From Bacteroides gallinarum DSM 18171 = JCM 13658 (lineage in GTDB: Bacteria > Bacteroidota > Bacteroidia > Bacteroidales > Bacteroidaceae): a stretch of 64,000 nucleotides of DNA. The number at the start of each line of letters is the position of its first letter. Positions within the stretch are counted from its first letter, which is position 1. A program made the position numbers and the translations under genes. The notes under the pieces were generated by a model. The model saw nothing but the letters and a program-made list of their open reading frames with translations, made no database searches and was not told the DNA's origin. Shown piece after piece: positions 19,963 to 43,113 of the stretch. The stretch spans positions 62,001 through 126,000 of the forward strand of contig NZ_KB894121.1 of the NCBI RefSeq assembly GCF_000374365.1, read 5' to 3'.

Positions 19963-21026
19963 TGAAAAGACCCGTACTGCTGCTGATGATATTGATATCG
20001 GCATCCATTTTCCTGCTCTTTCTCCTGAACCTGCTGCTGGGCTCCGTCCATATCCCCTTCGGTAAGATATGGGAAATTCTGTGGGGTACGGGAGCCGCTT
20101 CCCCACCCGATATGATGAGCAACCAGGAGGTGATATGGAGCAATATCATCTGGAAAAGCCGTGTGCCGCAGGCGTTGACGGCATTGGTGGCGGGAGCGGG
20201 GCTTTCGGTTAGCGGCTTGCAGATGCAGACGGTGTTCCGTAATCCGCTGGCAGGGCCTTCGGTGCTGGGCATCAGCTCGGGGGCGAGCCTGGGAGTTGCC
20301 TGCGTGGTGCTGCTGTCCGGCGCAATGGGCGGGGTGGCATTGAGCCGCCTGGGATATATGGGAGAGGTGGCTTTGTCCGTTGCCGCCATTATCGGCGCCT
20401 TGTCGGTTATGGCGCTGATTGTCTACGTCTCCCAGAAAGTGAAAGGAAACGTAACACTGCTCATTATCGGCGTGATGATAGGCTATGTGGCGAGCGCCGT
20501 TATCGGCGTGCTGAAATATTTCAGTGTGGAAGAAGATATACGTGCTTACGTTATCTGGGGGCTGGGCAGCTTTGCACGCGTATCCGGCGACCAGATGATA
20601 CTGTTCGTCTGTATCATGGCAGTGCTGCTGCCGTTGTCGTTCCTGCTGATAAAGACCATGAACCTGCTGCTGTTGGGCGACGGCTATGCGCGCAATTTAG
20701 GACTGAATATCAAACGGGCGCGCCTGCTCGTCATATCCTGCTCCGGAGTGTTGGTGGCTATTGTAACCGCTTACTGCGGGCCTATTATGTTTATCGGGCT
20801 GGCAGTGCCCCACCTATGCCGTGCTATCTTCCATACGTCCGACCACCGCATCCTGATGCCCGCCACCTTGCTGGTAGGCGCTGCACTGGCGCTGGTGTGC
20901 AACCTGATAGCCCGTATGCCGGGATTCGAGGGAGCATTGCCCGTCAATTCGGTAACGGCGCTGGTCGGTGCGCCGGTCGTGGCATCCGTACTTTTCAGAA
21001 AGAGAAAAGGAGAACTGAACGAATAG
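19959..21026 (+). CDS. btuC: FecCD-type ABC permease (BtuC-like)
   Basis: The 355-residue FecCD/BtuC-family permease has about ten membrane segments. Family motifs include LGSVHIPFGKIWEIL, WKSRVPQALTALVAGAGLSV, LQMQTVFRNPLAGPSVLGIS and GPIMFIGLAVPHLCRAIF. Its start overlaps the substrate-binding gene by four bases. It pairs with the ATPase at 21207, although 180 bases of repeat DNA separate them. Substrate is inferred from context as cobalamin or another corrinoid. Confidence 0.85.
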   Translation: MMKRPVLLLMILISASIFLLFLLNLLLGSVHIPFGKIWEILWGTGAASPPDMMSNQEVIWSNIIWKSRVPQALTALVAGAGLSVSGLQMQTVFRNPLAGPSVLGISSGASLGVACVVLLSGAMGGVALSRLGYMGEVALSVAAIIGALSVMALIVYVSQKVKGNVTLLIIGVMIGYVASAVIGVLKYFSVEEDIRAYVIWGLGSFARVSGDQMILFVCIMAVLLPLSFLLIKTMNLLLLGDGYARNLGLNIKRARLLVISCSGVLVAIVTAYCGPIMFIGLAVPHLCRAIFHTSDHRILMPATLLVGAALALVCNLIARMPGFEGALPVNSVTALVGAPVVASVLFRKRKGELNE

Positions 21027-21029
21027 CCT

Positions 21030-21206
21030 GCTAAACAGTAAATGCGACGAACCATATAGCCTTGTAAATTAGATAATCTGTAATGCGATAACCCATAATT
21101 AGATAGCACCATAATTAGATAACCCATAACCCTGATAACCCATAACCCCGATAACCTGTAATTAGATAACCCATAATTCGATAACCTATAAACCCGATAA
21201 CCCGAA
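21030..21206. repeat. GATAACCCATAATTA-type array between permease and ATPase genes
   Basis: About nine copies of a 15-16-bp unit (GATAACCCATAATTA and variants) run from just after the permease stop to the base before the ATPase start codon. The first units (ACGAATAGCCTG, then ACGAACCATATAGCCTTG) look like copies of the permease 3' end including its TAG stop. Confidence 0.8.
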
Positions 21207-22226
21207 TTGAATAACGAGACTATACATATCGAAAACCTCTCTATCGGCTATCCCGGTAAGAGCGATGTAAAAGTAGTAGCAGACGGTATCTGCGCCGGCA
21301 TCAACAGCGGCGAGCTGACCTGCCTGTTAGGAGCCAACGGAGTAGGGAAATCCACGCTGCTCCGTACATTGTCCGCCTTTCAGCCCAAGTTGGGCGGAGA
21401 GATACGTATCCAGGGAAAAGAGATTGAATCCTATACCGACAAGCAACTCTCGCGCGTTATCAGCGTGGTGCTGACGGAGAAATGCGATATCCGCAATATG
21501 TCCGTTATGGAATTGATAGGATTAGGACGTAGCCCTTATACCGGCTTCTGGGGTACGCTCACCAAAGAAGACAAGCGTGTGGTAGAGCACTCCATTGCTT
21601 TGGTCGGCATCCCCCACCTGACACACCGAATGGTGCATACGCTGAGCGACGGCGAGCGCCAGAAGGTAATGATAGCTAAGGCACTTGCCCAGGAAACCCC
21701 GGTGATTTACTTGGACGAGCCTACCGCCTTCCTCGACTTCCCCAGTAAGGTAGAGATGATGCAATTGCTGCACCACCTCAGCCGGCAGACGGACAAGACT
21801 ATTTTCCTCTCCACGCACGACCTCGAACTTGCCTTGCAGATAGCCGACAAAATCTGGCTTATGGACAAGGCGAACGGCGTCACTATCGGCACTCCCGAAG
21901 ACCTCTCCCTGAACGGTAGCCTTAGCAGCTTCTTCGCCCGCAAAGGCATCGTATTCGACCTGGAAACCGGACTGTTCCGTGTAGACAATGAATATACCTC
22001 GCAGATACGTCTGACGGGACACGGGCAGAGATATGCCATGGTGCGCAAGGCTTTGCAGCGCAACGGCATACTCGCTAATCGCAATATCGAGTCGGAAACC
22101 TATATCGAGACGGGCGATTTGAAGGGAGACGGCGTTTTTGTTCTGCATCAGCCCGGTAAAGAACCGGTCGTTGTTGCCAGCATCGAGGACTTATTGGCAG
22201 TAGTTCAAGCTTCTTTGCCGTCTTGA
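21207..22226 (+). CDS. btuD: ABC ATP-binding protein (BtuD/FecE-like) with C-terminal extension
   Basis: The ATPase has Walker A LLGANGVGKSTLLRT, the signature LSDGERQKVMIAKALAQ, Walker B VIYLDEPTAFLD and the switch histidine in STHDLE. The length, 339 residues, exceeds the roughly 255 of FecE/BtuD; the extra C-terminal part (from about residue 250) is a small domain of unknown role. The start is unusual: a TTG at 21207 directly abutting repeat DNA, with an in-frame stop at 21198. No ATG is available before Walker A. It completes the importer with the two genes upstream. Confidence 0.83.
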   Translation: MNNETIHIENLSIGYPGKSDVKVVADGICAGINSGELTCLLGANGVGKSTLLRTLSAFQPKLGGEIRIQGKEIESYTDKQLSRVISVVLTEKCDIRNMSVMELIGLGRSPYTGFWGTLTKEDKRVVEHSIALVGIPHLTHRMVHTLSDGERQKVMIAKALAQETPVIYLDEPTAFLDFPSKVEMMQLLHHLSRQTDKTIFLSTHDLELALQIADKIWLMDKANGVTIGTPEDLSLNGSLSSFFARKGIVFDLETGLFRVDNEYTSQIRLTGHGQRYAMVRKALQRNGILANRNIESETYIETGDLKGDGVFVLHQPGKEPVVVASIEDLLAVVQASLPS

Positions 22227-22558: not shown

Positions 22559-23236
22559 TTACCGGAATCGGAACCTATACCCTACGGTAAAGAAAGAAGC
22601 GAAATTCCGGGGCAGATAACCGTTGAACTCCTTTTTCATAACCTTGTACAGTTGTTGATTAACCTTTACCAAGCCCACTTGTGCTTCCGCACCGATAATA
22701 AACCTGCGGTATTCGAATTCGATTCCCGTTGTGATACCGGCATCCAACCGCCTGTTTCCCGCATTGTCTGCCAATACGCAGCCGAAGGTATCTATCCTGA
22801 AATGGCGATAAGCTTTGGTAGAACTGTTGTTGTAATAATACGGAATGCTGCCGGAAGTCTTTCCGCCCGCACCGCAGGCAATGTACGCACCCATGTCCAG
22901 CGAAACATGGTAATTCTCCCCCAGAGGCAGACGTACGGCAGCCGTAACGGGAATCTGCAAATACAATTCATGCATCTTGGCATACCTCACATACTTCATG
23001 TCTTTGCAGCCGCCTATGGATACGAATTCCAGGGCAGATTGCAATGCCCAAGTACTGTTCAGCATATATTCCACACCTATCCCCGCCTTGTAAGCTATCT
23101 GCGTTTCGCTGCCCGAATGCTTCCCGTAAAGGCGGGAAGTCCCTATCCCTGCCTTGGCATGGAAAGAGAAGGGCGATTGGGCATACCCGGCAGATACGGC
23201 AAGAGCCAGGCAAATCATCACTATTATCTTTTTCAT
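22559..23236 (-). CDS. Small outer-membrane beta-barrel protein, last gene of the cbi operon
   Basis: The 225-residue product has a signal peptide (MKKIIVMICLALAVSAGYAQ) and alternating strands typical of PorT/OmpA-like 8-stranded barrels (FHAKAGIGTSRLYG, AYKAGIGVEYMLN, TTGIEFEYRRFIIGAEAQVG), ending in a terminal strand FFTVGYRFRFR. Its ATG overlaps the cbiJD stop by four bases (ATGA), so translation is coupled to the cobalamin enzyme. A transport or stabilising role in corrinoid handling is possible but unproven. Confidence 0.72.
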   Translation of the reverse strand: MKKIIVMICLALAVSAGYAQSPFSFHAKAGIGTSRLYGKHSGSETQIAYKAGIGVEYMLNSTWALQSALEFVSIGGCKDMKYVRYAKMHELYLQIPVTAAVRLPLGENYHVSLDMGAYIACGAGGKTSGSIPYYYNNSSTKAYRHFRIDTFGCVLADNAGNRRLDAGITTGIEFEYRRFIIGAEAQVGLVKVNQQLYKVMKKEFNGYLPRNFASFFTVGYRFRFR

Positions 23237-25122
23237 ACGTATATCTTCCCGTCCTCACTGATTAACAATATGGTAAGCTCCCCGTGAGGTAACAAGGAAG
23301 CGCAACATCGCCGGCAATATCCAATCAGTAACTTGGCGAACCCCTCCGTCTTTTCAGCAGGAATGATACTCCACAATTCGCGTGCCAGGTTCATCTGCCG
23401 TATAGCCGCCGCTACCTCCTCTCCGCATGCCGCTTGCCGGGCTATATCCAGGATAAAATCCCTGTTCATCGTAACCTTCTTGCTGTGAGTGTCGAGATTA
23501 CCCTCCGCCAGCTTCACCGCCTTGCCTATCATTACGCCTAATGTAACGCGAGGCACTCCCAGCTCATCGGCAATCTTCAAAGTCTCCCCGATGAAATTGC
23601 CGTAATGCACGAAAGCCTGTGCCGGCAAATCGGGATAATACGCCTTGATGTAACGCTCGCTCTTTGCCCCGGAGCTGATAACTACCCGCGGGCTGCCTGT
23701 GGCGCGCGCCACCTCCATAGACTTGCGGATAGAGCCGATGAAAGCCTCGGTAGAGAACGGCTTCACGATACCCGACGTACCGATGATAGATATCCCCCCC
23801 CTTATACCCAGGCGGGGATTGAAAGTACGTCCGGCTATCTCCTCTCCGCTGGGCACGGAGATAGTAACCAGGAACGGGGCGGAACGCCTGGGTATGCCGA
23901 GCCGTTCGAGGCACAGCCTTACATTGTCCGCTATCATCTTGCGCGGAGTAGGGTTGATAGCCGGCATACCCGGTTCCAGCCCCAGTCCGGACAAGGTGAC
24001 GATACCTATGCCTTCCCCTCCGGTGACGACGATATTGTAATCCGCCGCTTCCCCGCCACCCGGTTCATCCGCTTCGTACGGCACGGCTACACTCGCCTTT
24101 ATCCGCATTCCGTCGGTGATGTCGGGGTCGTCTCCCGCATCCTTTATAACGCAGGCTTCCGCCTTCCGCATCCGGCTGCCGTTTACGAGGCAACTATGCG
24201 GAAACCCCTCCCGGTTCTCCACCGGCACGCTTATCTGCTCCCCGTTGGGCAACACTACCGGAAACTCCCCGGGACGCGGCTGTCCGCCGAAGCCGAACAA
24301 ATCCCACGTGGCAGCTACGGCGGCTGCGGTGGCACAAGTCCCGGTGGTGAGCCCGCTGCGCAAAGGATAGAAATCCGGTACGAACTTCTCCACCATTCTC
24401 CGCAACCCATGTTCACCGTTCACCGTTACGAAATCTTCCGGAAGCGGCGGACGCTCTATCGCAAAAATACGGATACCCAGCTCACGGGCAGCCTCCACCT
24501 TTTCGGGAAAACCACCGGACACACCGCTTTCCTTAAGCAAGATTGCATCGGGACGAAGCCGGCGCATCGGCAGGCGCTCGTCCTCCCCCGTACGGTAGTA
24601 ACATAGATATTCCTCGGAGAAACCCTGGCGGCGTGCCAGCTCGCGCGAACTTTCGCGGTCGAGGATGCGGAAATAACAGCGGCAGCCTTCCCGCCAGAGC
24701 GTTTCCAGCTTGCCGATAGTCTGTACGCCGGTCAGTGCCAGCAGCACACGGATACCCTCCTCCCTTATCCGGCAGATAGCATCCCCGTAATCCCTGCACC
24801 ACACGATACCTTCCGCCTCCCTTTTCGGGTAGATGCGCTCGTAGCGTATAACCGGTATCCGGAGCCTGCCAGCCGCTTCACCGACATTCCGGTGCAGCTC
24901 CCCCGCAAAGGGATGTGCGGCATCCACCAACAGCGAGATATGGTGGCTGCGGCAGAAACTCTCCAGCCCGCTGCCGTCCATGCCCCCTTGCAGGCGGATG
25001 CCGTTGTGCAAGGTAATATCCTGCTCACTGCCCCTGGTGGAGTAATAAAAAGGCTTTCCCGCTTCCTCGAGCGTCCGGACTGCTATGCGTCCTTCGGTTG
25101 TGCCGCCTAATACGAGTATCAT
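23233..25122 (-). CDS. cbiJD: CbiJ-CbiD fusion: precorrin-6A reductase / cobalt-precorrin-5B C1-methyltransferase
   Basis: Residues 1 to about 245 are CbiJ/CobK (MILVLGGTTEGRIAVRTLEE, LLVDAAHPFAGELHRNV, LLKESGVSGGFPEKVEAA), which reduces the corrin ring at the precorrin-6A stage with NAD(P)H. From about residue 250 the CbiD domain starts with LRSGLTTGTCATAAAVAAT and has IKDAGDDPDITDGM and SIIGTSGIVKPFS; it methylates C1. Total length is 629, as expected for the two together. It is 23 bases downstream of cbiGF and overlaps the barrel gene. Confidence 0.93.
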   Translation of the reverse strand: MILVLGGTTEGRIAVRTLEEAGKPFYYSTRGSEQDITLHNGIRLQGGMDGSGLESFCRSHHISLLVDAAHPFAGELHRNVGEAAGRLRIPVIRYERIYPKREAEGIVWCRDYGDAICRIREEGIRVLLALTGVQTIGKLETLWREGCRCYFRILDRESSRELARRQGFSEEYLCYYRTGEDERLPMRRLRPDAILLKESGVSGGFPEKVEAARELGIRIFAIERPPLPEDFVTVNGEHGLRRMVEKFVPDFYPLRSGLTTGTCATAAAVAATWDLFGFGGQPRPGEFPVVLPNGEQISVPVENREGFPHSCLVNGSRMRKAEACVIKDAGDDPDITDGMRIKASVAVPYEADEPGGGEAADYNIVVTGGEGIGIVTLSGLGLEPGMPAINPTPRKMIADNVRLCLERLGIPRRSAPFLVTISVPSGEEIAGRTFNPRLGIRGGISIIGTSGIVKPFSTEAFIGSIRKSMEVARATGSPRVVISSGAKSERYIKAYYPDLPAQAFVHYGNFIGETLKIADELGVPRVTLGVMIGKAVKLAEGNLDTHSKKVTMNRDFILDIARQAACGEEVAAAIRQMNLARELWSIIPAEKTEGFAKLLIGYCRRCCASLLPHGELTILLISEDGKIYV

Positions 25123-25145: not shown

Positions 25146-27167
25146 TTATTGTCTGAATAAATGTTTAAACTCGTGCGCATACAGCCGCGACAGCCCTTCC
25201 CGGTTGCCGATAGCCTCGCCTACGACAATCATCGTTGTCAGCGTCAGGCTGTTTTCCTTCACTATCCGGGCGAGGTCTTTCAGCTCACCGGTAAAGATAC
25301 GTTCGTCTTGCCAGGTCAGATGATAACACACGGCTACGGGAGTCGTTTCCGGGTACTCCTGCAAAAGCTCCGCCTGCACCTGCTCCGCGATGCCTGCGCT
25401 TAAGAAGATACACATGGTGCTTTGCGAGCGTGCTAGCAGGTGCAGCTTCTCCCGCTCGGGCATGGGAGTACGCCCCTCGCCGCGGGTAAGAATGATACTC
25501 TGCACCTTCTCTGGGATAGTGAACTGCGATTTCAGGGCTGCCGCCGCTGCCTGGAAAGAAGATATGCCAGGGGTGATATGATAACTCATGTTATGCCGGT
25601 CGAAGTAATTCATCTGCTCCTGTATCGCCCCGTAGATACACGGGTCGCCCGTGTGCAGGCGTACGATAAACTTGCCTTTGTCGTAGAACTCCTTCATCAG
25701 CGCAAACTGCTCCTCCAAGTCCATGGAAGCGGAGCTGCGTACCGTAGCGCCCGGCTTGGCGCACAACGTCAGCTCACGGGGTACAAGGCTGCCCGCATAA
25801 AGAATAAGGTCTGCCTTCTCCAACATCTGCCTGCCGCGCACGGAGATAAGGTCGGGACTGCCCGGACCCGCACCCACAATCTCGATATGCCCCCGGCGTA
25901 CGGCGCGTATATCCATGGCAACGGCTATCGTGTAGTTGCCGCCTTTCCTTTTCGGCATTACCAGTTGCGCGTTGCCGGCAGACAGTATGGCGGCAGCTTC
26001 GCATACGCTGGGCGTTCCCATATGCTTCATTACGGTAGGGCTGGGAGTAGGAACCTCTACCTCCGCCAATTCCCCGGCGGTGTAGAAGCGAAGCTCCCAT
26101 TTCCCCTCGAGCGACTTCACCACCGGCTCCTCGCGTTTGGCGTCGATTGTAGAGAAAGAGGCGATTGCCTGCAAAGGGATGTTGCAGGCTTTCAGCTCGT
26201 CTTGGAGAGCTTTCATCACTGTGTTTACCGGCTCAGCCTGGTGTGCAAGCCCGATGCCTGCATGCAGTACGCGCGGCACATAACAGATAAGCGGCTTTCC
26301 TTCCAACGGCGGTATTTTCGGAGAAACGCACAGCACCAGTTCGAAGCGGGAAGGGTCGATGTCCTCCAGGCGGTAGAACACCTCCACGTGGGCGGGAAGA
26401 TGAGCTTCCAGCCAGTCGGTTCCCTCGTCGCGCACCTCGAGCAACAGAGCGGTAGGTTTTCCGGCAACGAAAATCCCGATAGCCTCGTTCATGCACACCC
26501 TCATCTTTTCTTCGGAAGTAGAGGCAGGCTCTGCCGGCGACGGGGCGGGAGAGGTTGCCCTGATAACCGGAAACCAGCCGAAACGCCCGGGCAGTCGGTC
26601 TAACGCCCACAACCCGGTAAGGTCGCTTTGGGTAGTTACTACCGGTTCGGCGCCTAATATGCCTGCCACCACGACAGCCAGTTCGTTGGCTCCGCCGATG
26701 TGTCCGGAAAGGACGGAAATGGCATATTTGCCGGTACTGTCCACGCAGACTACGGCGGGGTCGGTGTACTTGTTCTTCACGCAAGGGGCGATAGAACGGA
26801 CACAGATACCCATGGCACCGATAAAGATAAAGGCGCCGTAACGGTTGAAGTTGTCGGCGGTGAAACTGCCGGCAGATTCTATATGGGTACATCCTTCCTC
26901 ATGGCGCGGGGTAAAAATCGTTGCGCCCGGCAACTCTTTAAGCAATAGCCGTGCAGAATTCAGCCCGGCTTCCGAAACAAGGATAATGGCGGTTTTTATG
27001 TCGGGTGTATCGGACTTCATGTCAGGCATATCGGTTTTTGTATTTGGTGTATCGGGCTTCGTGTCGGGCATATCGGTTTTTGTATTTAGTGTATCGGACT
27101 TCATGTCAGGCATGTCAGCTTTCGTATTTAGTGTATCGGTTTTCATACCGGATATATCAGTTTTCAT
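25146..27167 (-). CDS. cbiGF: CbiG-CbiF fusion: cobalt-precorrin-5A hydrolase / precorrin-4 C11-methyltransferase
   Basis: Residues about 60-400 are CbiG (FIGAMGICVRSIAPCVKNKY, STGKYAISVLSGHIGGANE), which opens the ring lactone and releases acetaldehyde. The rest is CbiF/CobM (IEIVGAGPGSPDLISVRGRQ, LHTGDPCIYGAIQEQM), which methylates C11. The first 60 residues are an odd 7-residue repeat of the type MPDMKSD/TPNTKTD with no counterpart in CbiG; the true start may be any of the many methionines there. Total length is 673. Confidence 0.92.
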   Translation of the reverse strand: MKTDISGMKTDTLNTKADMPDMKSDTLNTKTDMPDTKPDTPNTKTDMPDMKSDTPDIKTAIILVSEAGLNSARLLLKELPGATIFTPRHEEGCTHIESAGSFTADNFNRYGAFIFIGAMGICVRSIAPCVKNKYTDPAVVCVDSTGKYAISVLSGHIGGANELAVVVAGILGAEPVVTTQSDLTGLWALDRLPGRFGWFPVIRATSPAPSPAEPASTSEEKMRVCMNEAIGIFVAGKPTALLLEVRDEGTDWLEAHLPAHVEVFYRLEDIDPSRFELVLCVSPKIPPLEGKPLICYVPRVLHAGIGLAHQAEPVNTVMKALQDELKACNIPLQAIASFSTIDAKREEPVVKSLEGKWELRFYTAGELAEVEVPTPSPTVMKHMGTPSVCEAAAILSAGNAQLVMPKRKGGNYTIAVAMDIRAVRRGHIEIVGAGPGSPDLISVRGRQMLEKADLILYAGSLVPRELTLCAKPGATVRSSASMDLEEQFALMKEFYDKGKFIVRLHTGDPCIYGAIQEQMNYFDRHNMSYHITPGISSFQAAAAALKSQFTIPEKVQSIILTRGEGRTPMPEREKLHLLARSQSTMCIFLSAGIAEQVQAELLQEYPETTPVAVCYHLTWQDERIFTGELKDLARIVKENSLTLTTMIVVGEAIGNREGLSRLYAHEFKHLFRQ

Positions 27168-27300
27168 AAGTGGGTATATTGTTTTTTATAATGGATATAT
27201 TTGTTTCTGTAACGGATATATCAGTTTCTATAATGTGTATTCATTTCAGAAGATACAGCCTTCTTTTAGGAAGATACAACCTTCATCTCAGGAGATACAG
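26988..27300. repeat. 21-bp array crossing the cbiET 3' end, the gap and the cbiGF 5' end
   Basis: A 21-bp period runs through the last codons of cbiET (AGATACAGCCTTCATTATCTC-like units near 27241-27300), the 98-base gap (GGATATATCAGTTTC-like units) and the first 60 codons of cbiGF (TATCGGTTTTTGTATTTAGT-like units). The sequence drifts along the block, but the spacing holds and stays in frame within both genes. Confidence 0.75.
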
Positions 27301-28747
27301 CCTTCATTATCTCAATAGGATTATAATCGTTCAAGGCGATACGCACGGAAGGTTGCAGCTCCATGCCTGCGGCTTCCGCTCCTTCTGCAAATGCCTGCCT
27401 GCTTTCTGCCGATACGGAGTTGAATACGACGCAACCGCCGGGCAGCAGTACCTCCTTTATTTTCATCAGCATCTCCGGCAGATGTCCGCCATGCCCGCCT
27501 ATAAAGACGGCATCGGGGCGGGGGAGCGTTCCCGTTTCCGCTTGCAGGAAATCGCCGATGATTGCCGTGATGCCCGGCGCACCGAAACGGCGGCTGTTGA
27601 TATTCATCAGTTCTTCACCTTCGGCACGTATCTCGAAAGAAACGACCGTAAGGTGGGGAAATTGCAGCCGGGCTTCTATGGAAACCGAGCCGGTACAGAA
27701 ACCCACATCCCAAAACACACGCCGGCGGTTCAGCTCCAACGCCTGCAATGTAAGCAGGCGGATAGGGGCTTTGGTTATCATCCGGGCGCGTCCGTCCAGG
27801 TGGGCGAACAGCTTGTCGGGTATGCCGAAAGGACGGGCTGGCAACGGGCTGTACACACATTCGTGGCAGGCTTGCCCGTTCGCCTCTCCGGGATAGCAGG
27901 CGCAGAGTAACAGGTTGTTGGGATGCTCGAACGTGCCCAATGCCGCTTCTTCCAATGTCATGCGGAGAATGCGTTCTTTTCCGGGATTGCCGAGATGCTC
28001 TCCTACATACATCGTGTAATGGCGGTAGCCGTATTCCAGCATCCGGGTGGCGATTGCGGCAGGAGTATGTTCCCGGTCGGTGAGGATGCCGATTTTAGGT
28101 GCACGCTCTATTAGGGCGCGGTCGAACTCATGCCAGGGGCGTCCCGTCAGCGAAACGGTACGCATATCGTCGTAAGGCATTACGAGGCGGTGCGCCAATA
28201 CCTGGAGCGAGTTGAAAGACGGGTAAAGCGTGATTGCCGCATCCGGCAGCTTCCGCCTTACCGTATTGGCAAAGCCGAAGAACAACGGGTCGCCCGAAGC
28301 GAAAACTATAATCTGTCCGGCAGGATTATTATCTTCCGTACCATTCCGTACTGTTCCGGAAGTGGTAGATGCTTTTTTATGCTGTGTAGATACGCATTCA
28401 TTTTGTATAAGTACTTTTTCATCCCGTGTAGATACGCTTTCATTCTGTACAAGTACTTTTTCATCCCGCGTAAATACGCTTTCATCCTGCACAAGAACTT
28501 TTTCATTCCGCATAAGCGCTTTTTCATACTGTGCAAACACATTATCCAGCGGCACGGTAATGGAAATCCATATCGCATCGTCCGGTAGCAAGCCGCCTAC
28601 AATCTCCTTGTGCCGTACCCCTCCCGAAAACACCTTTCCTTGCCGTATATGCTCCAGTACTTCCGGCGGGAAGAAAGGCGTCCGGTTATCATCCATTCCT
28701 ATAATGATAAATTTCCGTTGCATCGCCGATTTCCAGTCATTATTCAT
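27266..28747 (-). CDS. cbiET: CbiE-CbiT fusion: precorrin-6Y C5,15-methyltransferase (decarboxylating)
   Basis: The N-terminal CbiE methylase (FIIIGMDDNRTPFFPPEV, FASGDPLFFGFANTV) and C-terminal CbiT (RRRVFWDVGFCTGSVSIEA, AVFIGGHGGHLPEML) together methylate C5 and C15 and remove the C12 acetate carboxyl. The equivalent single protein is CobL. Residues about 73-145 inside CbiE are a foreign-looking insert with a 14-residue repeat (DEKVLVQNESVSTR), between a beta strand and the SAM-binding GDP motif. The C-terminus ends in a short repeat (MKAVSPE MKVVSS). The gene is 9 bases downstream of cbiHC. Confidence 0.92.
   Translation of the reverse strand: MNNDWKSAMQRKFIIIGMDDNRTPFFPPEVLEHIRQGKVFSGGVRHKEIVGGLLPDDAIWISITVPLDNVFAQYEKALMRNEKVLVQDESVFTRDEKVLVQNESVSTRDEKVLIQNECVSTQHKKASTTSGTVRNGTEDNNPAGQIIVFASGDPLFFGFANTVRRKLPDAAITLYPSFNSLQVLAHRLVMPYDDMRTVSLTGRPWHEFDRALIERAPKIGILTDREHTPAAIATRMLEYGYRHYTMYVGEHLGNPGKERILRMTLEEAALGTFEHPNNLLLCACYPGEANGQACHECVYSPLPARPFGIPDKLFAHLDGRARMITKAPIRLLTLQALELNRRRVFWDVGFCTGSVSIEARLQFPHLTVVSFEIRAEGEELMNINSRRFGAPGITAIIGDFLQAETGTLPRPDAVFIGGHGGHLPEMLMKIKEVLLPGGCVVFNSVSAESRQAFAEGAEAAGMELQPSVRIALNDYNPIEIMKAVSPEMKVVSS
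28370..28530. repeat. 42-bp (2 x 21) array inside the CbiE domain
   Basis: Alternating 21-bp units (TACTTTTTCATCCCGTGTAG type and TACGCTTTCATTCTGTACAA type) give about four 42-bp periods, read in frame as DEKVLVQNESVSTR-like peptides. It is degenerate and has no stops on the coding strand. Confidence 0.8.
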
Positions 28748-28756: not shown

Positions 28757-30202
28757 TCATACATCCCTTCCCGGCCTTAGCTGTTCCGCATCGTTGTAGC
28801 ATAAGATAGCGTTCACTAAGGTGGCGGCGAGATTACTGCCGCCTTTGCGTCCTTCCACGATTATCTTCGGGATATGGGTAAAAGGCTTTATCATATGTTT
28901 GGACTCCTGCACGTGCACGAAGCCCACCGGAGCGGCGATAATCCCTGCCGGATACGCTTTCCCTTTACGGATAAGGTCGCAAAGCTCCATTAGGGCGGTC
29001 GGAGCGTTGCCGAATACGAAAAGCGCATCGGGACAATCTTCCACAGCCAGGCGCGTGCCTGCCTGCGTCCGGGTGATGCCTTTCTCTGCCGCCATTGCAG
29101 CGGTACGCGAATCGCCGAGATAGCATTTCACCTCCACACCCAGACGCTCCAAAGCCCCTTTACGGATACCGCTGGCAGCCATTGTTACATCCGTAACGAT
29201 TGTCCGTATGCGTCCTTCGATGATGCCCCGGTACAATGTTTCCACAGCTCCTGCGTCCGTATGCAGCAACTTTTCCATTTCAAAATCTGCGGTGGTATGG
29301 ATAGCGTGCAGCAGCGCCCATTTATGGTCGAGGGGAATGTTATCGTTCTTCAATTCCTTTTCTATGGTACGGAAGCTCCGTATCATGATATCCTGTCCTT
29401 TATTGATTTGGAGGTGGCTTGCAGAGGACGGGGAATGCCCCCTTTCATCTTCCCTATAATACCCCCGCGGTGTAATTATCGTCCCGTTCCACTCGTAAGA
29501 CTGCGAGTTGCCTATCAGCACAACGGTGAACATATCTATATCTTCGGGATTGAACGCTTCCAGCGTGGTTATATGCACCTCTTGTTCGGGGCGTCCCGCC
29601 TGGCGCACATACCCCACGGGCGTCTGCGGTGAGCGTCCCTCCTGCAAGAACAGTTCTTTCAGGCGGTAAAGCTGCCAATAGCGCCCCTCGCTTTTGGGGT
29701 TGTAGACAGCCGTCACGAAATCGGCGGCGGCAGCGGCTACGATACGCTTCTCGATGCGCTCCCACGGCGTCATCAGGTCTGACAGCGAAATCACGCAGAA
29801 ATCATGCCCGACGGGAGCGCCCAGCAAGGCGGCAGCCTTTTGGAAAGCGCTGATACCCGGCAGCGAAACAACCTCTATGTCGCTGTACCGTTGGCGCTTC
29901 ATCTCATAAATAAGGGGAGTCATGCCGTAAATCCCTGCATCGCCCGAGCTGACAACGCATACCGTCTTACCCTGTCCGGCAAGTTCGAAAGCCTGTTCGG
30001 CACGGTCGCGTTCCCGCTTCATCCCCGTGTCTATACATTCCGTTCCGGGACGGAGGTGGGGAGTGACGAACCGGAAATAATATTTGTATCCTACCACTAC
30101 ATCCGCTTCCTTCAAAGCGGCGATTACGGCAGGCGTAATATCCTGCTCATTACCCGGACCGATACCGGCAACGATGATTTTGGGCTGTTTCATAAGTTCC
30201 AT
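28757..30202 (-). CDS. cbiHC: CbiH-CbiC fusion: precorrin-3B C17-methyltransferase / precorrin-8X methylmutase
   Basis: Residues 1 to about 250 are CbiH/CobJ (KIIVAGIGPGNEQDITPAVI, VSSGDAGIYGMTPLIYEM, SLSDLMTPWERIEKRI), which methylates C17 during ring contraction. The C-terminal part is CbiC/CobH (HAIHTTADFEMEKLLHTD, TIVTDVTMAASGIRKGAL), which moves the C11 methyl to C12 to give cobyrinate. Length is 481. The start may be Met4 (MKQPKIIV). It is the second gene of the riboswitch-controlled operon, 156 bases after cbiK; that gap shows nothing notable. Confidence 0.93.
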   Translation of the reverse strand: MELMKQPKIIVAGIGPGNEQDITPAVIAALKEADVVVGYKYYFRFVTPHLRPGTECIDTGMKRERDRAEQAFELAGQGKTVCVVSSGDAGIYGMTPLIYEMKRQRYSDIEVVSLPGISAFQKAAALLGAPVGHDFCVISLSDLMTPWERIEKRIVAAAAADFVTAVYNPKSEGRYWQLYRLKELFLQEGRSPQTPVGYVRQAGRPEQEVHITTLEAFNPEDIDMFTVVLIGNSQSYEWNGTIITPRGYYREDERGHSPSSASHLQINKGQDIMIRSFRTIEKELKNDNIPLDHKWALLHAIHTTADFEMEKLLHTDAGAVETLYRGIIEGRIRTIVTDVTMAASGIRKGALERLGVEVKCYLGDSRTAAMAAEKGITRTQAGTRLAVEDCPDALFVFGNAPTALMELCDLIRKGKAYPAGIIAAPVGFVHVQESKHMIKPFTHIPKIIVEGRKGGSNLAATLVNAILCYNDAEQLRPGRDV

Positions 30203-30358: not shown

Positions 30359-31321
30359 TTACTTCACCTCCTTGCCTGCCGCATACGCCGCTTTCTTCTC
30401 CATGATACCCAGCATGCGGTGTTTCAGTCCGAAACGGATGTGCTCTATAAATATATCCTGTATCTCAGGAACTTGTCCCAACCCTTCCAGGCGGGTATTT
30501 ACGGTGTAACCCTCTTTCTCGAGCGCCTCCTTCCAGTCGCCCGCAATATCGTTCTTGGCATGGTCGCCGGCAACGAACATTAAAGGAACGAGCGTTACGC
30601 TTTTGGCTTTGGCAGCTTTCAGTTGTGCAGACATCGTTTCGAAAGTCGGATAACCCTCGATAGTGCCTACGTGGAAGTTAGTCCGGCCGTCGGCTTTCAG
30701 CATATAATCAATCTGGCCGTACATGGCAGTACTGGGAGTATAAGTGCCGTGCCCTACGAGAACGATGTGCTCTTTGGCGTTCTTTTTCCCGTTGGCAGGC
30801 GTGCCGAAACGTTTTTCCAGGATAGCGGTCACTTCTTCGCAATCTTCTACCGAATAGAACAGGGGCGTGCCTACACGTATCTGCTTGAAGAAAGGCAACA
30901 CACTTTCCACATCGCGGCGGAGCGATTCCATTTCCACACCGTCGATGATATTAGTGCTCTGTATGATGACATGCGTATAACCCTCGCTGCGCAGCCGGAG
31001 CAAAACATCCAGCGGAGTAGCTTTGTCGATGCCCCGTGCCTTGAGGCGGCGTATGATGATGCGCGAGGTATAAGCCTCCCTGAACTCCAGTTCCGGAAAA
31101 GCAGCCTTAGCCTTGGCATTAATGGCGTCGATAGTCTGTGCACGGGTATCGTCGTGCGTAGTGCCGAAGTGCACCATGAGCAAGGCAGCCTTATCGCCCG
31201 GCTTCATATTTGCCAGCATATCGTCTGCAACGAAATTTTCTCCTTCGTGCGCGGAGCAGAAAAGGGAGAACACGGTTAATATTAAAAACAGGCTCGTTCT
31301 CATACTTGTCTTCATAATCAT
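30359..31321 (-). CDS. cbiK: Exported sirohydrochlorin cobaltochelatase CbiK
   Basis: CbiK inserts Co2+ into sirohydrochlorin, the first committed step of the anaerobic pathway. Residues matching Salmonella CbiK Glu89, His145 and His207 are present as Glu130 (DGVEME), His191 (VLVGHGTYTP) and His254 (VAGDHAKND). The first about 24 residues (MRTSLFLILTVFSLFCSAHE region) form a signal peptide, so the product should be periplasmic. Periplasmic CbiK forms are known in Desulfovibrio. The start may be any of three close methionines. It heads the cbi operon behind a cobalamin riboswitch. Confidence 0.88.
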   Translation of the reverse strand: MIMKTSMRTSLFLILTVFSLFCSAHEGENFVADDMLANMKPGDKAALLMVHFGTTHDDTRAQTIDAINAKAKAAFPELEFREAYTSRIIIRRLKARGIDKATPLDVLLRLRSEGYTHVIIQSTNIIDGVEMESLRRDVESVLPFFKQIRVGTPLFYSVEDCEEVTAILEKRFGTPANGKKNAKEHIVLVGHGTYTPSTAMYGQIDYMLKADGRTNFHVGTIEGYPTFETMSAQLKAAKAKSVTLVPLMFVAGDHAKNDIAGDWKEALEKEGYTVNTRLEGLGQVPEIQDIFIEHIRFGLKHRMLGIMEKKAAYAAGKEVK

Positions 31322-31390
31322 AACAGAATTTTGGTTTTATAATTGATAATTTAGTCTTCCTAATCCCGGGGCGACCATTGTCTTTCTAAC

Positions 31391-31595
31391 GGCATAGGCA
31401 GGTTTCCTGGCTTACCCCTGCAAGAAAACGCGTAACCTTCCCGTCCTTGTCGGACAGTGGTATGAATGAGGATGTTTCCTTGCACTTTATCCGCGTATGC
31501 ACCGGGATAAAATGGAGTTTACAGTAGCGGGCACTGTTCCGGACTTGCACCGGATTCCCTTTTATACGGCAGGCAGGATGCGCTGCCGTATCACC
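31391..31595 (-). promoter_or_regulatory. Cobalamin riboswitch upstream of cbiK
   Basis: Read on the minus strand, the element has GGGAATCCGGTGCAAGTCCG followed by GAACAGTGCCCGCTACTGTA and the B12 box ending AGCCAGGAAACCTGCC. A -7 box (TATCTTTG) at 31613-31606 places the transcript start just before it. It ends about 70 bases before the cbiK start, the arrangement of an OFF switch. Confidence 0.93.
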
Positions 31596-31605
31596 TAAAC
31601 CGGGA

Positions 31606-31613
31606 CAAAGATA
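31606..31613 (-). promoter_or_regulatory. -7 box of the cbi operon
   Basis: The minus strand reads TATCTTTG, about 10 bases before the first helix of the cobalamin riboswitch. Confidence 0.6.
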
Positions 31614-37975: not shown

Positions 37976-37994
37976 GCATGTAGCCACAACTAAG

Positions 37995-38900: not shown

Positions 38901-38943
38901 GGTAAAGGTGTCCGCTTTATGGGATAACCCTTACCGTTTCTTT
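38894..38943 (-). terminator. Terminator downstream of the TonB-CbiK operon
   Basis: AAACGGTAA and TTACCGTTT enclose a 30-base loop. On the minus strand the stem is followed by TTTTTC, 105 bases after the CbiK-like stop. The plus strand also has CTTTATTCTT after it, so it may work both ways. Confidence 0.5.
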
Positions 38944-39048: not shown

Positions 39049-40248
39049 TTATGCCTCCGGTTGGTAGCCTTCGCCATTCTCCCAAGCATCGGCATCCCAC
39101 TGTTCTTTCAGGTGGTTCACCCAGATAGCGCGGATTTCGGGATAGCTGCCCAGTGCCTTGATGCCGCAACCGTCCTTGATACCGTGGTCGGCGTCTGCCT
39201 GGCCTACGGGGTGTGCCTCGAAAGTTCTGTCTACCTTGAAACCGATTTTTTCCAGGCGTTCGCGCCAGCTATATTCGTTGGTGTTAAGCTCTACGTCGTC
39301 CAGACTTTTGTTCTCGGCTATGGCTTCGATGCCCCAAAGGTCGTTGTGGGCGTGGTCGCCGGCGATAGACATGAAAGGAGCGAGGTACACGTTCACTTCA
39401 TTCGGTTGCAGGTTGTTGTCCTGGCAATACTTCATTACCTGCGAATAGATGCAGTCGGGATAGTTGGCAATCATCTGTGCAGCAGAAGTCACCGGTATGC
39501 GGTCTGCTGGTAGTTCCTCTTCTTCTTTAGGCCAGAAAAGCATTTCACCGTAGTCCACAGTACCTACGAAGATATTGCCGTTGGTTGCTTTCTCTTGCAG
39601 CTTCTCTTGTGTTTCGAGGTACTTTATGTTGGCGTTGTAGTTTACGTCGGGGTTACCGTGTCCCATAAGGAGCACGAGGTTTTTCTTGTCTGCCAGTTTC
39701 TCCTTGTAATGATTGTAAAGGACTTTTGCTACGGCTTCCGTATCATCGTCGGTAGAGAGCAGGTTGGCGCCTTTCAGCACGTCGATATGCGGATACCAGT
39801 CTATCATGAAATTCTTCTTGATATCGGTATTCATCAGCGAGAGGTATTCTTCGCCCGGAATAACGTGCAGCGACTGTACGGCTACGCGCGTATAGCCGGC
39901 ATCGCCGATAGCTTTCAGCCATTGGTCTAACTTGTAGCGTGCCTCGCCGGTAGATGCCTCTGCACGGCCGATACAGGTGCGCGAGGTGAAGGACATGTAG
40001 ATGTCCGTCTCGGGGAACTGCTTCTGGAAGTCGTTGATAATCTCATCGTAAACGTCCAGTGACTCGTTGTAGGTACTTCCGAAAGTACAGAGCAGGATAG
40101 CGGTATCGTGCTTCTTGGTTTCAGCAACTACGCGGGTGGCGGGGTTGGCGGTACTTTCTTCATCGTCGTCGTCGCTGCACGAGGCAAAGCCGGTGCAGGT
40201 TACGGCTACCACGAGGGCTGCCAGCAGGTAAAACTTGAAATTCTTCAT
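39049..40248 (-). CDS. Surface lipoprotein CbiK-like chelatase (IhtB-like)
   Basis: The 399-residue protein is a CbiK paralogue keeping all three key residues: Glu134 (IPGEEY), His197 (LLMGHGNP) and His299 (IAGDHAHND). Its signal ends in Cys24 followed by SDDDDEE, a lipoprotein with an acidic surface-export signal. An insert of about 45 residues follows the first histidine motif. P. gingivalis IhtB is a CbiK-like surface lipoprotein proposed to handle haem, next to a TonB receptor. Here the pair is under a cobalamin riboswitch, so corrinoid or cobalt handling is more likely. Direction of catalysis is open. Confidence 0.85.
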   Translation of the reverse strand: MKNFKFYLLAALVVAVTCTGFASCSDDDDEESTANPATRVVAETKKHDTAILLCTFGSTYNESLDVYDEIINDFQKQFPETDIYMSFTSRTCIGRAEASTGEARYKLDQWLKAIGDAGYTRVAVQSLHVIPGEEYLSLMNTDIKKNFMIDWYPHIDVLKGANLLSTDDDTEAVAKVLYNHYKEKLADKKNLVLLMGHGNPDVNYNANIKYLETQEKLQEKATNGNIFVGTVDYGEMLFWPKEEEELPADRIPVTSAAQMIANYPDCIYSQVMKYCQDNNLQPNEVNVYLAPFMSIAGDHAHNDLWGIEAIAENKSLDDVELNTNEYSWRERLEKIGFKVDRTFEAHPVGQADADHGIKDGCGIKALGSYPEIRAIWVNHLKEQWDADAWENGEGYQPEA

Positions 40249-40289
40249 ACTTGTAATGAATTAAATAATGAATTGAAATATATAATTAA

Positions 40290-40460
40290 TGTATCGTATT
40301 ACTTGCGAAATGTATAGTGTTGTATTACTTGATAAATATATGATGATGTATTACTTGTAAAACATATAATAATGTATTGCCTGTGATATATGGTAACGTA
40401 TTACTTGGCAAATACAATAACGTATTATTTATGAAATATACGATAACGTATTTACTTGTT
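40290..40460. repeat. GTATTACTTG array between the TonB receptor and CbiK-like genes
   Basis: Seven copies of a unit of the type GTATTACTTGATAAATATAT have phase points 40296, 40322, 40348, 40374, 40398, 40422 and 40448 (period 24-26 bp). The last copy contains the receptor's stop codon and final codons (TTACTTGTT on the plus strand). Confidence 0.85.
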
Positions 40461-42512
40461 CTTGAACTTGATAAGCGCCGATGCGTAGAAGTTCCTCCCC
40501 GGCGTGCTGGTTGCCCGGTTGCGTCCGAAGGGGGTGCGGTCTACGTAGTCGAACAGGTTGTCCACGCCTACATTCATCGTCAGCGTCCAGAACCGCATTT
40601 TCAGCAGGGTGTGGGCGGTGTTGATACGCCATGTCTGGAAGCCGTCGGCATTGTTGTCATTCACGTAGTGGCGGGTGGACTGGTAGCGGCCGTACACTCC
40701 CAAGCCCAGGCGGTAGCGCCCCCATGCGTGCTGCCAGGTGGCGTTGAGCGTGGCGTTGTGGCAGGAGGTGGCGTCGATGTAGAGGTACTGCATGTAGTTG
40801 TCGCCCTTGTCGGCGGCATACTGCGCTTTAGGGTCGGCATAGCTGTATCCGCCGCCCAGCATGATGTCTTTCGTAGGGCGGTAGTTGAAGGTGAAATCCA
40901 TGCCGTAGATGCGGGCTTTCGTTAGGTTGGTGTACCGCTTGCTCTTTTCTATCTCGAGGAATTTCTCCTCGGGAGTTACCTTTATCTCTACCAGCTCTAT
41001 CATGTTGCGGATGAAGTTGGCGTATCCCGTCAGGCTTGCCTGGAACTTGCCTCCCACGTACTCCACGCTTACGGAGCCGTATTGCGAGGTCTGTGCCTTA
41101 AGGTCGGTGTTGCCGTGGTAGGCGGTGAGCGAGCCGCCGCCGATGCTGCCCGTATAGTCGTAGTACAGCTCTTTGATAGTGGGCGCCTTGAAGCCCATGG
41201 CGTAGGAGGCGCGCAGGTTGAAGTGTCCCGCCTTGTACAGCGCCGAGACTTTGGGGCTGAGGTTAAATCCGGTTTCCTTATGCTGTGTGCCGCGTACGCC
41301 GGCGGTCAGGACGAAGTTGTCCGTAGCCGTCCACTCCTCCTGCGCATAGGCGGCGAGGGTGTATACGGAGGCAAGGTCGTCGGCTATGTGGTGGGGAGAT
41401 TCCAGGCGGTTGTACTGGTATTCGATGCCGGTGTTCAGGATGTGGCGGTCGCCGAGGTAGAAGATGCCCTTTACCTGTGCCAGCACTTGCTGCTGTATGC
41501 TCTGCTTGATACGCTGGCCGGGGTAGTAGGTGATGCGGTCGCCGTCCTTGAAGTAGTCGGTGATGTCTTTCAGCTTATAGTCGTAGAAGTAACCGTAGCG
41601 GCCGTACGAGAGGTCGGCGGTGAGGTAGTTGCGTCCGTTCAGCTTGTACTTGCCGCCGGCGGCGAAGGTGTAGTTGCGGTAGTAGAAGTCGTTGGGCAGG
41701 TATTTCCATGGGCCGTGCGTACGCATCACCCAGCGCTCGTAGTAGGTTCCTTCGGCGGTGAGGTTGAGCCGCTTGTTTACCTGCCATTCCAGGTTCTCGG
41801 AGAGCGTGTAGTTGGTGGAGCGGTTCACGGTGAGCATGGTGGAGCCGGATTTCAATTGGTTCTGGTCCCACTGCATGTCTGTGTTGCGCCAGCCGTCGGT
41901 GTGTCGGAAGTTGATGCCGGTTACCGATTTCAGCTTGCCGTACTTGAAGCCGAAGCTGGTGCTTTGCCGTACATCGCCATGCTCGCCTACGCGGGTGGTG
42001 CTGGTAAGCTCCATTTTCTCCCGGCTCTGCTTGGTGATGATGTTGATAACGCCGGCAATGGCATCGCTGCCGTAGAGCGAAGAGGCGGCGCCTTTCACGA
42101 TTTCTATGCGCTCTATGTTGGCGGGGTTCAACTGGTTGAGGTCGTTCTGCCCGCCGATGTCGCCGTTCATGCGCTTGCCGTTTATCATGATGAGGATGTA
42201 ATCGTTGTTCAGCCCGTTGAGCTGGATGTGGCTGCCCATGTCGCCGTCGTGGAAGGTGAGGGAGGGACAGAGGCCGCTCAGGAGGTCGTCGATGCTGCGT
42301 GCCTGGTATTGTTCCAGGGCTTTGCCGGTGAGCACTTCCGTCTGTACGGGGGCATCTTTGAGGTAGTGTTCCGTACCTGTGCCCGTTACCACTACTTCAT
42401 TGAGCAGGAGCGAGAGTTCTTTCTCGTCTTTGTTTTTCAGGATGCTTTGTGCCGTGGCGGATTGCATCGCGCAACACAGCAATGCCGCTCCAAGCCAATA
42501 CTTGCGCTTCAT
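40452..42512 (-). CDS. TonB-dependent receptor (BtuB/IhtA-like)
   Basis: The 686-residue receptor has a signal peptide (MKRKYWLGAALLCCAMQSAT), a TonB-box-like segment LNEVVVTGTGTEHY, a plug (VKGAASSLYGSDAIAGVINI) and a barrel ending in FYASALIKFKNK. It lacks the carboxypeptidase-like domain of the other receptor in the window. It is transcribed with the CbiK-like lipoprotein behind a cobalamin riboswitch, so the ligand is probably a corrinoid, another tetrapyrrole or a cobalt complex. Confidence 0.9.
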   Translation of the reverse strand: MKRKYWLGAALLCCAMQSATAQSILKNKDEKELSLLLNEVVVTGTGTEHYLKDAPVQTEVLTGKALEQYQARSIDDLLSGLCPSLTFHDGDMGSHIQLNGLNNDYILIMINGKRMNGDIGGQNDLNQLNPANIERIEIVKGAASSLYGSDAIAGVINIITKQSREKMELTSTTRVGEHGDVRQSTSFGFKYGKLKSVTGINFRHTDGWRNTDMQWDQNQLKSGSTMLTVNRSTNYTLSENLEWQVNKRLNLTAEGTYYERWVMRTHGPWKYLPNDFYYRNYTFAAGGKYKLNGRNYLTADLSYGRYGYFYDYKLKDITDYFKDGDRITYYPGQRIKQSIQQQVLAQVKGIFYLGDRHILNTGIEYQYNRLESPHHIADDLASVYTLAAYAQEEWTATDNFVLTAGVRGTQHKETGFNLSPKVSALYKAGHFNLRASYAMGFKAPTIKELYYDYTGSIGGGSLTAYHGNTDLKAQTSQYGSVSVEYVGGKFQASLTGYANFIRNMIELVEIKVTPEEKFLEIEKSKRYTNLTKARIYGMDFTFNYRPTKDIMLGGGYSYADPKAQYAADKGDNYMQYLYIDATSCHNATLNATWQHAWGRYRLGLGVYGRYQSTRHYVNDNNADGFQTWRINTAHTLLKMRFWTLTMNVGVDNLFDYVDRTPFGRNRATSTPGRNFYASALIKFKNK

Positions 42513-42669
42513 CGTCTATACCTTTTATAAATTGAATAAGCATAAAAAGGCACGTTGCTTCTGCATACGAATGGTAATGACCCGAAAAGAATAAAATAGG
42601 CTGGAAATCCTATCGTATAATGTAGGGGACATCGCTTCTAATCCTGGAAGCTCAGTGCTCACGTTACGG

Positions 42670-42848
42670 AAGCGGCAGGTATTCTGGCTCTCCTCTGCTT
42701 GTACTGCCTTCCCGCCGCGTTGCCGCAGCAGTGGCTTTTGGAGGGTACAAACATCTTTTATAAAGGATTACAGCTGCAGGTACAGCTCCGGTCTTGCACC
42801 GGATTCCCTTGCATCGGCAGGCGGATGTGTCTGCCCGATTACCGTTTC
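42670..42848 (-). promoter_or_regulatory. Cobalamin riboswitch upstream of the TonB/CbiK-lipoprotein operon
   Basis: On the minus strand, GGGAATCCGGTGCAAGACCG is followed by GAGCTGTACCTGCAGCTGTA and the B12 box AGCCAGAATACCTGCCGC. The element ends about 160 bases before the receptor start; that leader shows no other feature. Confidence 0.93.
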
Positions 42849-42854
42849 CGGTGG

Positions 42855-42862
42855 CAAAGATA
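42855..42862 (-). promoter_or_regulatory. -7 box of the TonB/CbiK-lipoprotein operon
   Basis: The minus strand reads TATCTTTG directly before the riboswitch. It is divergent from the box at 42917. Confidence 0.6.
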
Positions 42863-42916: not shown

Positions 42917-42924
42917 TATCTTTG
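42917..42924 (+). promoter_or_regulatory. -7 box of the CWC/carboxylase operon
   Basis: TATCTTTG, a TAnnTTTG match, stands about 10 bases before the first hairpin of the plus-strand riboswitch. Confidence 0.6.
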
Positions 42925-42934
42925 TCCCCGAATT

Positions 42935-43113
42935 GGTTCCGGGCGGACGTTTCTGCCGTCCGGATTAAAAGGGAATCGGGTGCAAATCCCGGACAGTCCC
43001 GCTGCTGTGAAGCTCCGCCTTTACGAAGTCTTGATAAAGAACCTTTGCCACTGATAGCTGTTGTATATCGGGAAGGCATCAAGACAAGGAGTCAGTCAGA
43101 AGACCTGCCATTC
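42935..43113 (+). promoter_or_regulatory. Cobalamin riboswitch upstream of the CWC/carboxylase operon
   Basis: The order is a hairpin (CGGACG-CGTCCG), the core GGGAATCGGGTGCAAATCCC plus GGACAGTCCCGCTGCTGTGA, and the B12 box TCAGTCAGAAGACCTGCC near 43092-43109. About 80 bases separate it from the first ATG at 43195 and include ACTCGTGGGATAGG, shared with the riboswitch at 31.8 kb. Confidence 0.93.

Follow-up and report, generated by a model that had tools for sequence, protein, structure and literature searches.

In a stretch of 64 000 nucleotides (nt) from the draft genome of Bacteroides gallinarum DSM 18171 (contig NZ_KB894121.1, positions 62 001 to 126 000; hereafter, the window), a cobalamin riboswitch, a gene for a TonB-dependent receptor and a gene for a CbiK-family lipoprotein follow one another on the minus strand. 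This receptor–chelatase pair is part of an order-wide system tied to synthesis of the B12 ring. We lean, with reserve, to the reading that lipoprotein and receptor make up an acquisition device for a tetrapyrrole precursor of B12, with probable loading of metal. The genome is assembled in 102 contigs and is 99.76% complete; the parts of the locus, with protein lengths in amino acids (aa), are as follows.

42657..42861, minus strand: cobalamin riboswitch ahead of the receptor–chelatase pair (RF00174, 80.9 bits)
40452..42512, minus strand: TonB-dependent receptor, 686 aa (Pfam Plug 2.7e-25, barrel 3.2e-39)
40249..40451, no strand: spacer between receptor and chelatase genes, 203 nt (26-nt tandem repeats, ∼6.7 copies)
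39049..40248, minus strand: CbiK-family lipoprotein, 399 aa (Pfam CbiK, PF06180, 4.6e-37, in two stretches)

The aptamer score, to be read against the Rfam Cobalamin cut-off of 31.5 bits, corresponds to E = 2.4e-18 for the whole 64-kb window. Since the spacer with its repeat array takes up 203 nt, as compared with at most 82 nt in 76 named relatives (see below), co-transcription of the two window genes is only likely. A scan for promoters and terminators returned a single weak promoter-like site, below the shuffled count, and none on the minus strand. Tandem repeats were seen around the chelatase gene at 37802–38351 (22-nt units), 38720–38901 (46-nt units) and 40287–40459 (26-nt units; the array that fills the spacer).

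The N-terminus of the lipoprotein reads as a lipoprotein signal in which Cys24 is followed by SDDDDEE. An acidic tail after the lipobox cysteine is described as an export signal of Bacteroides lipoproteins (PMC8941943); applied to the window chelatase, this suggests that it carries a surface-type export tail. The Pfam CbiK model gives the protein 128.2 bits with the cut-off at 26.2. In alignment, Glu134, His197 and His299 correspond to Glu89, His145 and His207 of Salmonella CbiK, while Asp232 takes the place of Glu175 of that enzyme; in CbiK these residues bind metal. The Glu-His-His triad is invariant in all 39 lipoproteins of our tree set, and the fourth position is Asp in each of the 39. 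An AlphaFold2 model was built from 21 sequences, with a mean predicted local distance difference test (pLDDT) value of 78.2 and a predicted template modelling score of 0.81; pLDDT was below 50 for residues 1–31, 250–252 and 346–361. The best structural match to this predicted fold was FetB of Porphyromonas gingivalis (PDB 9b86; Z 30.1, 260 aligned positions, 2.1 Å), followed by the periplasmic CbiK of Desulfovibrio vulgaris (PDB 2xvx; Z 28.2) and Salmonella CbiK (PDB 1qgo; Z 26.1), with SirB and ferrochelatases trailing at Z values of 18–19. The lipoprotein is a member of the CbiK family with the class II chelatase fold.

These results agree with much of the first-pass annotation of the locus, which had noticed a TonB receptor ahead of the chelatase (borne out by the Plug and barrel matches), a B12 riboswitch on top of the pair (found by Rfam well over cut-off), the three chelatase residues (which the Salmonella alignment recovers) and a lipoprotein signal with a surface-type CSDDDDEE tail, which we likewise read from the sequence. 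It had also proposed an overlay of a predicted structure on Salmonella CbiK; the model indeed overlays as a chelatase fold.

A scan of GTDB genomes yielded 540 relatives of the lipoprotein, and the best 80 of them (the named loci) include those of B. clarus, Phocaeicola vulgatus ATCC 8482, Parabacteroides, Dysgonomonas, Odoribacter, Alistipes, Porphyromonas and many Prevotellaceae. A TonB receptor gene lies directly upstream on the same strand in 76 of the 77 named loci that hold an upstream gene, at distances from −19 to 82 nt, with 34 of the receptor genes overlapping the chelatase gene; in the exception, L156, an antisense open reading frame was called over the chelatase, and a riboswitch is present upstream. 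The acidic tail was found in 78 of the 80 loci (the tail of L149 is basic; L158 starts near a contig end). It was also seen by eye in 40 of 40 called lipoproteins, the window protein included, from a sample of the family Bacteroidaceae, where 41 loci were considered (40 and the window) and one, L080, yielded no lipoprotein. The named set and the family sample overlap (e.g. L122/G062, L129/G002 and L141/G037).

A cobalamin riboswitch was detected upstream in 63 of the 68 named loci with at least 3 kb of upstream sequence. A motif scan, which gave no match in shuffled sequence, was positive in 51 of the 68; Rfam added 12 of the 17 motif-negative loci, thus the motif scan produces an undercount. 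Nine motif-positive loci given to Rfam were all positive, and the other 42 were counted by the motif alone. Negative by both methods were L145, L149 and L153 (all Porphyromonas), L159 and L164 (short upstream part). In a receptor tree, 31 receptors (30 from the 80 loci and that of the window) fell on one side of a branch with an approximate likelihood-ratio support (SH-aLRT) of 97, apart from the second receptors encoded at these loci and from the BtuB-like receptor found elsewhere in the window genome; PDB searches with other receptors of the loci returned Cir/BtuB/FepA/PhuR-type matches only. In many loci the riboswitch is followed by the receptor and surface CbiK genes, frequently by a second receptor gene, and after these by cbiHC, cbiET, cbiGF, cbiJD and btuF/btuC; in others, the window among them, the cbi genes are separate from the pair. 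In B. pyogenes (G002 and G091) cbiL is situated between two receptor genes of the same riboswitch operon, and in G052 it directly follows the surface CbiK gene.

To relate the pair to corrin synthesis we used a family sample of 201 Bacteroidaceae genomes (the window genome, G000, and 200 drawn evenly). The protein query matched 60 of them; the match in G074 is an exported CbiK and was removed, leaving 59 carriers. N-termini were seen for 44 carriers, 43 of them with the acidic tail; the remaining one, G016, has a lipoprotein without this tail, which groups with a non-surface copy in the tree. CbiD was detected in 69 of the 201 genomes: in 56 of 59 carriers versus 13 of 142 others. Conversely, a surface CbiK occurs in only three of the 132 Bacteroidaceae without CbiD. 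All 35 named carriers tested (of the 80) have CbiD, and in the genus of the window the lipoprotein is present in three of seven genomes with CbiD and in none of six others.

The early part of the pathway is mostly missing from the same genomes. The hemC gene (porphobilinogen deaminase) was present in seven of the 201 genomes and in two of the 69 with CbiD; it was missing in 57 of 59 carriers and in 28 of 35 named carriers, and Phocaeicola vulgatus ATCC 8482 (L120), a laboratory strain in wide use, is a case with CbiD present and hemC absent. CbiD or CbiK occurs in 74 genomes; in 73 of them, omitting G150 because it is only a short fragment, we found hemB in one and SUMT over cut-off in two, in a search that did not extend to hemA, hemL and hemD. 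SUMT-like genes under cut-off (160–163 bits), which could be real SUMT, were seen in G032, G177 and G191; none of the three has a surface CbiK. As hemC, hemB and SUMT are mostly absent and CbiD is present, most carriers have the corrin pathway without the means to make the ring. This is the pattern described for tetrapyrrole precursor salvagers, with the corrin pathway present and early tetrapyrrole genes missing (Shelton et al. 2019, PMC6461909). The window genome shows it too: corrin genes, CbiD among them, are present, and hemC, hemB and SUMT over cut-off are absent by the same search. The salvagers of that study differ in being mainly Firmicutes that were tested with 5-aminolevulinate, and the available part of the paper names no dedicated uptake system.

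We then considered where the chelatases of these genomes are placed. In 34 of the 59 carriers (G016 among them) the lipoprotein is the only CbiK found and there is no CbiX; a further CbiK match occurs in the other 25. CbiX as a stand-in for the missing chelatase was considered and rejected, as none turned up in any of the 34 carriers with a single CbiK. The search did not take in chelatases like CobN, which belongs to a late stage of the aerobic route; the two matches to CbiX, among 36 genomes searched, were the CbiKs of G000 and G009 themselves. We read by eye 30 CbiK N-termini from the 71 CbiK genomes: 28 were signal-peptide-like (that of L100 is short and uncertain), two were lipoproteins, and no CbiK without export features was seen among the 30. 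In four genomes of one genus (L101, L102, L103 and L108) the Glu-His-His set is replaced in the periplasmic CbiK and intact in the surface one; such triad-less periplasmic proteins are perhaps binding proteins. A tree was built for 63 proteins: 39 lipoproteins (that of the window and 38 of the 80), FetB, L104, L105, 19 periplasmic CbiKs and the Salmonella and Desulfovibrio enzymes. A supported branch (100/97) has on one side the 39 lipoproteins, FetB and the copies L104 and L105, which are not of the surface type, and on the opposite side the 19 periplasmic CbiKs with Salmonella and Desulfovibrio CbiK.

The window itself contains a cbi operon with its own riboswitch, ∼7.4 kb from the pair on the same strand, and further genes for B12 ring synthesis and transport.

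31380..31613, minus strand: cobalamin riboswitch heading the cbi operon (RF00174, 95.2 bits)
30359..31321, minus strand: second CbiK, 320 aa, N-terminus signal-peptide-like by eye, without lipobox (Pfam 1.2e-77)
28757..30202, minus strand: CbiH-CbiC fusion (TP_methylase and CbiC)
27266..28747, minus strand: CbiE-CbiT fusion (NCBIfam CbiE 140.7 bits, CbiT 91.3 bits, both over cut-off)
25146..27167, minus strand: CbiG-CbiF fusion (CbiG_N, CbiG_mid, CbiG_C, TP_methylase)
23233..25122, minus strand: CbiJ-CbiD fusion (CbiJ 1.4e-44, CbiD 1.9e-83)
13704..14387, minus strand: CbiL-like domain, the enzyme next after cobalt insertion (TIGR01467 162.0 bits, just below the cut-off of 163.25; TP_methylase)
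18793..22226, plus strand: BtuF/BtuC/BtuD-type binding protein, permease and ATPase, three genes (Peripla_BP_2, FecCD, ABC_tran)

The second CbiK is probably periplasmic, judging by its N-terminus. In the anaerobic pathway CbiK or CbiX makes cobalt-sirohydrochlorin from sirohydrochlorin, ahead of CbiL (PMC7242693). Given that genes for making sirohydrochlorin are mostly missing, and that all CbiKs we read look exported, the simplest reading is that a ring of outside origin and cobalt come together on the cell surface or within the periplasm. The first-pass annotation had offered three functions for the lipoprotein: cobalt capture, salvage of corrinoid precursors, or stripping of metal. Precursor salvage for corrin synthesis is the one that the distribution favours, because the gene follows CbiD, is often in a cbi operon and is mostly found where hemB, hemC and SUMT are missing; stripping (of siroheme or haem) may still have a part. 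The neighbouring cbi operon, the exported second CbiK and the missing early pathway had not been used in that annotation.

One could picture the process as follows. The surface lipoprotein, being a class II chelatase whose metal site is intact, would bind a sirohydrochlorin-type ring present outside the cell, shed by neighbours and possibly in the form of siroheme. It would probably insert or swap the metal, leaving the ring with cobalt, and, sitting on the receptor, would hand the ring over to it. TonB energy would move the ring into the periplasm, and an importer of the ATP-binding cassette (ABC) type with BtuF/C/D-like parts, for which the set at 18793–22226 is a candidate, would carry it through the inner membrane. 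The corrin ring would then be completed by the cbi enzymes, among them CbiH and, in genomes that have it, CbiL, and the riboswitch would turn the device off when B12 is plentiful. We infer the substrate, the insertion of cobalt at the surface, the contact of lipoprotein with receptor, the inner-membrane route and the response to B12.

What this scheme builds on was computed: the architecture of the locus, the metal-site residues, the surface-type signal, the riboswitch, the pairing, the co-occurrence with corrin genes and the absence of hemB, hemC and SUMT in most carriers. Several observations weigh against acquisition of a B12 precursor. The Fisher tests of co-occurrence treat genomes as independent and so ignore shared ancestry, and 13 genomes with CbiD have no surface CbiK, three of them having no CbiK at all. 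Several of the 34 single-CbiK genomes are incomplete drafts. The lipoprotein has 81.6 bits with the NCBIfam model of sirohydrochlorin cobaltochelatase (NF047852), whose cut-off is 400, hence it does not qualify as a cobaltochelatase under the NCBI criterion; the second CbiK of the window is likewise under this cut-off (197.2 bits). The hemC gene is present in two of the 59 family-sample carriers and in seven of the 35 named ones (P. macacae, P. canoris, an uncultured Porphyromonas, B. propionicifaciens, two Dysgonomonas and UBA3297), therefore salvage is not obligatory for all. Entry at sirohydrochlorin needs CbiL, unless a divergent enzyme exists, and no CbiL was found at 1e-15 in 48 of the 73 genomes, though the remaining cbi genes are there (matches in 25, from a tally of 26 less G183, where the SUMT gene accounts for the match); these genomes would thus need a C20 methyltransferase of divergent sequence, or the ring would have to enter at a later step. 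Finally, FetB shares the lipoproteins' side of the tree, and its reported substrate is protoporphyrin or haem.

The alternative that survives best, which we still regard as unlikely, is capture without catalysis: the chelatase fold would serve as a binding lid for a ring with cobalt or with no metal, as BtuG does for B12, and insertion would fall to the donor organism or to the periplasmic CbiK. It gains from the fact that surface-lipoprotein lids on TonB receptors, such as BtuG on BtuB and XusB on XusA, are established in Bacteroides, and from the further CbiK match in 25 of 59 carriers. Under mere capture one would not expect the metal-binding triad to be kept in every one of the 39 lipoproteins, nor the other CbiK to have lost it in four genomes; moreover, in 34 of the 59 carriers there is no other CbiK or CbiX found that could do the insertion. 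The two lid systems resemble the window pair only in part. BtuB–BtuG of Bacteroides likewise joins a TonB receptor to a surface lipoprotein, with a cobalamin riboswitch in control, but BtuG is a propeller, in contrast to the chelatase fold predicted for the window lipoprotein, and the window genome has a BtuBG-like operon elsewhere. XusABC, for uptake of xenosiderophores, also pairs a receptor with a surface lipoprotein lid, but fold and cargo of its lipoprotein are different, and cobalamin and riboswitches are not mentioned in the XusABC paper. Work on B. thetaiotaomicron names BtuJ, BtuK and BtuL and does not mention CbiK or a chelatase.

We consider it improbable that the pair is a haem or porphyrin device of the kind proposed for FetB/IhtB, with uptake, stripping or re-metallation of haem or protoporphyrin and with B12 control as a regulatory link only. 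FetB/IhtB is the nearest described protein to the window lipoprotein. It has in common with it the CbiK-like chelatase fold, the triad, the side of the tree and the status of closest solved structure, and as a surface or outer-membrane protein it adjoins a TonB receptor (IhtA), like the window pair. The likeness of the locus to P. gingivalis ihtAB pointed out in the first-pass annotation is therefore real. FetB differs in having Glu where all 39 lipoproteins have the equivalent of Asp232. The literature states that FetB/IhtB may take iron from haem and makes Mn-protoporphyrin (PMC13402209, PMC6460266, PMC13227078), and Porphyromonas accounts for three of the five named loci that lack a riboswitch. 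Against a haem function speak the coincidence of carriers with the corrin pathway, with three surface CbiKs among 132 Bacteroidaceae without CbiD, and the riboswitch in 63 of 68 loci. In addition, unpublished data cited in the literature describe a cbiK mutant of B. fragilis, with the type of CbiK not stated, as normal in use of haem iron. Among the papers listed by our searches, which left most of the subscription literature outside, none had a title or beginning of an abstract linking the FetB/IhtB family to corrin synthesis or putting forward the precursor role.

Ordinary uptake of corrinoid or cobalt, with the pair as one more BtuBG-like receptor for B12 or cobinamide or as a cobalt collector, would fit with the riboswitch class shared with B12 uptake operons and with the match of the receptor to BtuB models (it also matches models of siderophore and haem receptors), but we set it aside as the least probable explanation, because the genome has a separate riboswitch-headed operon in the usual B12 uptake layout (receptor, acidic-tail propeller-type lipoprotein, binding protein and permease, the first two of which would be BtuB and BtuG) and because the window receptor is distant from the receptor of that operon (long branch, exact place unsure) and far below the cut-off of TIGR01779, the BtuB model (134.6 versus 599.7 bits, with the scores of known Bacteroides BtuB proteins uncompared); pure uptake would also leave the confinement to corrin-pathway genomes unexplained.

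As compared with the pathway enzymes, the window lipoprotein shares fold, triad and the genomic link to cbi genes with Salmonella CbiK and the D. vulgaris periplasmic CbiK, while differing from them in being a lipoprotein of a type ∼330–410 aa long, with inserts (in the window form mainly at 233–286), that belongs to the opposite side of the tree. Salmonella CbiK is cytoplasmic. A bolder and more tentative proposal, to which we give a little less than an even chance, is that much of the Bacteroidales has transferred the step that commits the anaerobic route to B12, namely cobalt insertion, from the cytoplasm to a place outside it. A surface chelatase doubling as the lid of a TonB receptor would load scavenged sirohydrochlorin or siroheme with cobalt, the product would be imported, and corrin synthesis would start from a ring supplied by the community; FetB/IhtAB would be a device of the same kind.

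Members of the Bacteroidales abound in the gut and are for the most part believed to rely on others for B12. If a ring precursor is indeed imported and finished, the carriers would count as conditional producers of B12 that have so far gone unnoticed, and rings of the sirohydrochlorin type would be a new currency of cross-feeding. For an enzyme to insert a metal for biosynthesis outside the cytoplasm, as part of an importer's lid, would be out of the ordinary. A surface CbiK-like chelatase with a TonB receptor is known already from FetB/IhtB. In one survey, a complete B12 pathway was present in only 0.6% of Bacteroidetes, and P. gingivalis was found to lack the steps to precorrin-2 (PMC6461909); acquisition of a precursor offers a testable answer to a corrin pathway without precorrin-2 in that species, and would recast FetB/IhtB.

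The genome holds seven cobalamin riboswitches by Rfam, four of them inside the window. Besides those of the pair, the cbi operon and the separate uptake operon, the remaining two outside the window precede a beta-eliminating lyase gene and a gene without a Pfam match; the former riboswitch is directly before the lyase, probably a tryptophanase (contig C27, locus L199, 12940–14741, minus strand).

On the plus strand of the window, at 31794–37372, a cobalamin riboswitch is followed by genes for a 793-aa TonB receptor (MxcH-like, 2e-144, under the cut-off of that model), a 436-aa lipoprotein with a CSDDDD tail and a PepSY_TM protein. This trio has an XusABC-like layout, but it is apparently controlled by B12 and is situated between the two CbiK genes; uptake of a cobalt complex would be a guess. 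The 436-aa lipoprotein had no PDB sequence match at 0.01. As a general partner of the receptor–chelatase pair the trio was rejected, a related PepSY gene being found in five of 121 loci (the window included) and the whole trio in two.

In the region 42917–46970 (plus strand) the fourth riboswitch of the window, divergent from that of the pair, precedes genes for a small Cys-rich protein (43195), a biotin carboxylase (43394–44905) and a carboxyltransferase (45432–46970), an acyl-CoA carboxylase set apparently under B12 control. At 55363–55435 (plus strand) we observed a match to the Bacteroidetes FopS small RNA family (79.2 bits).

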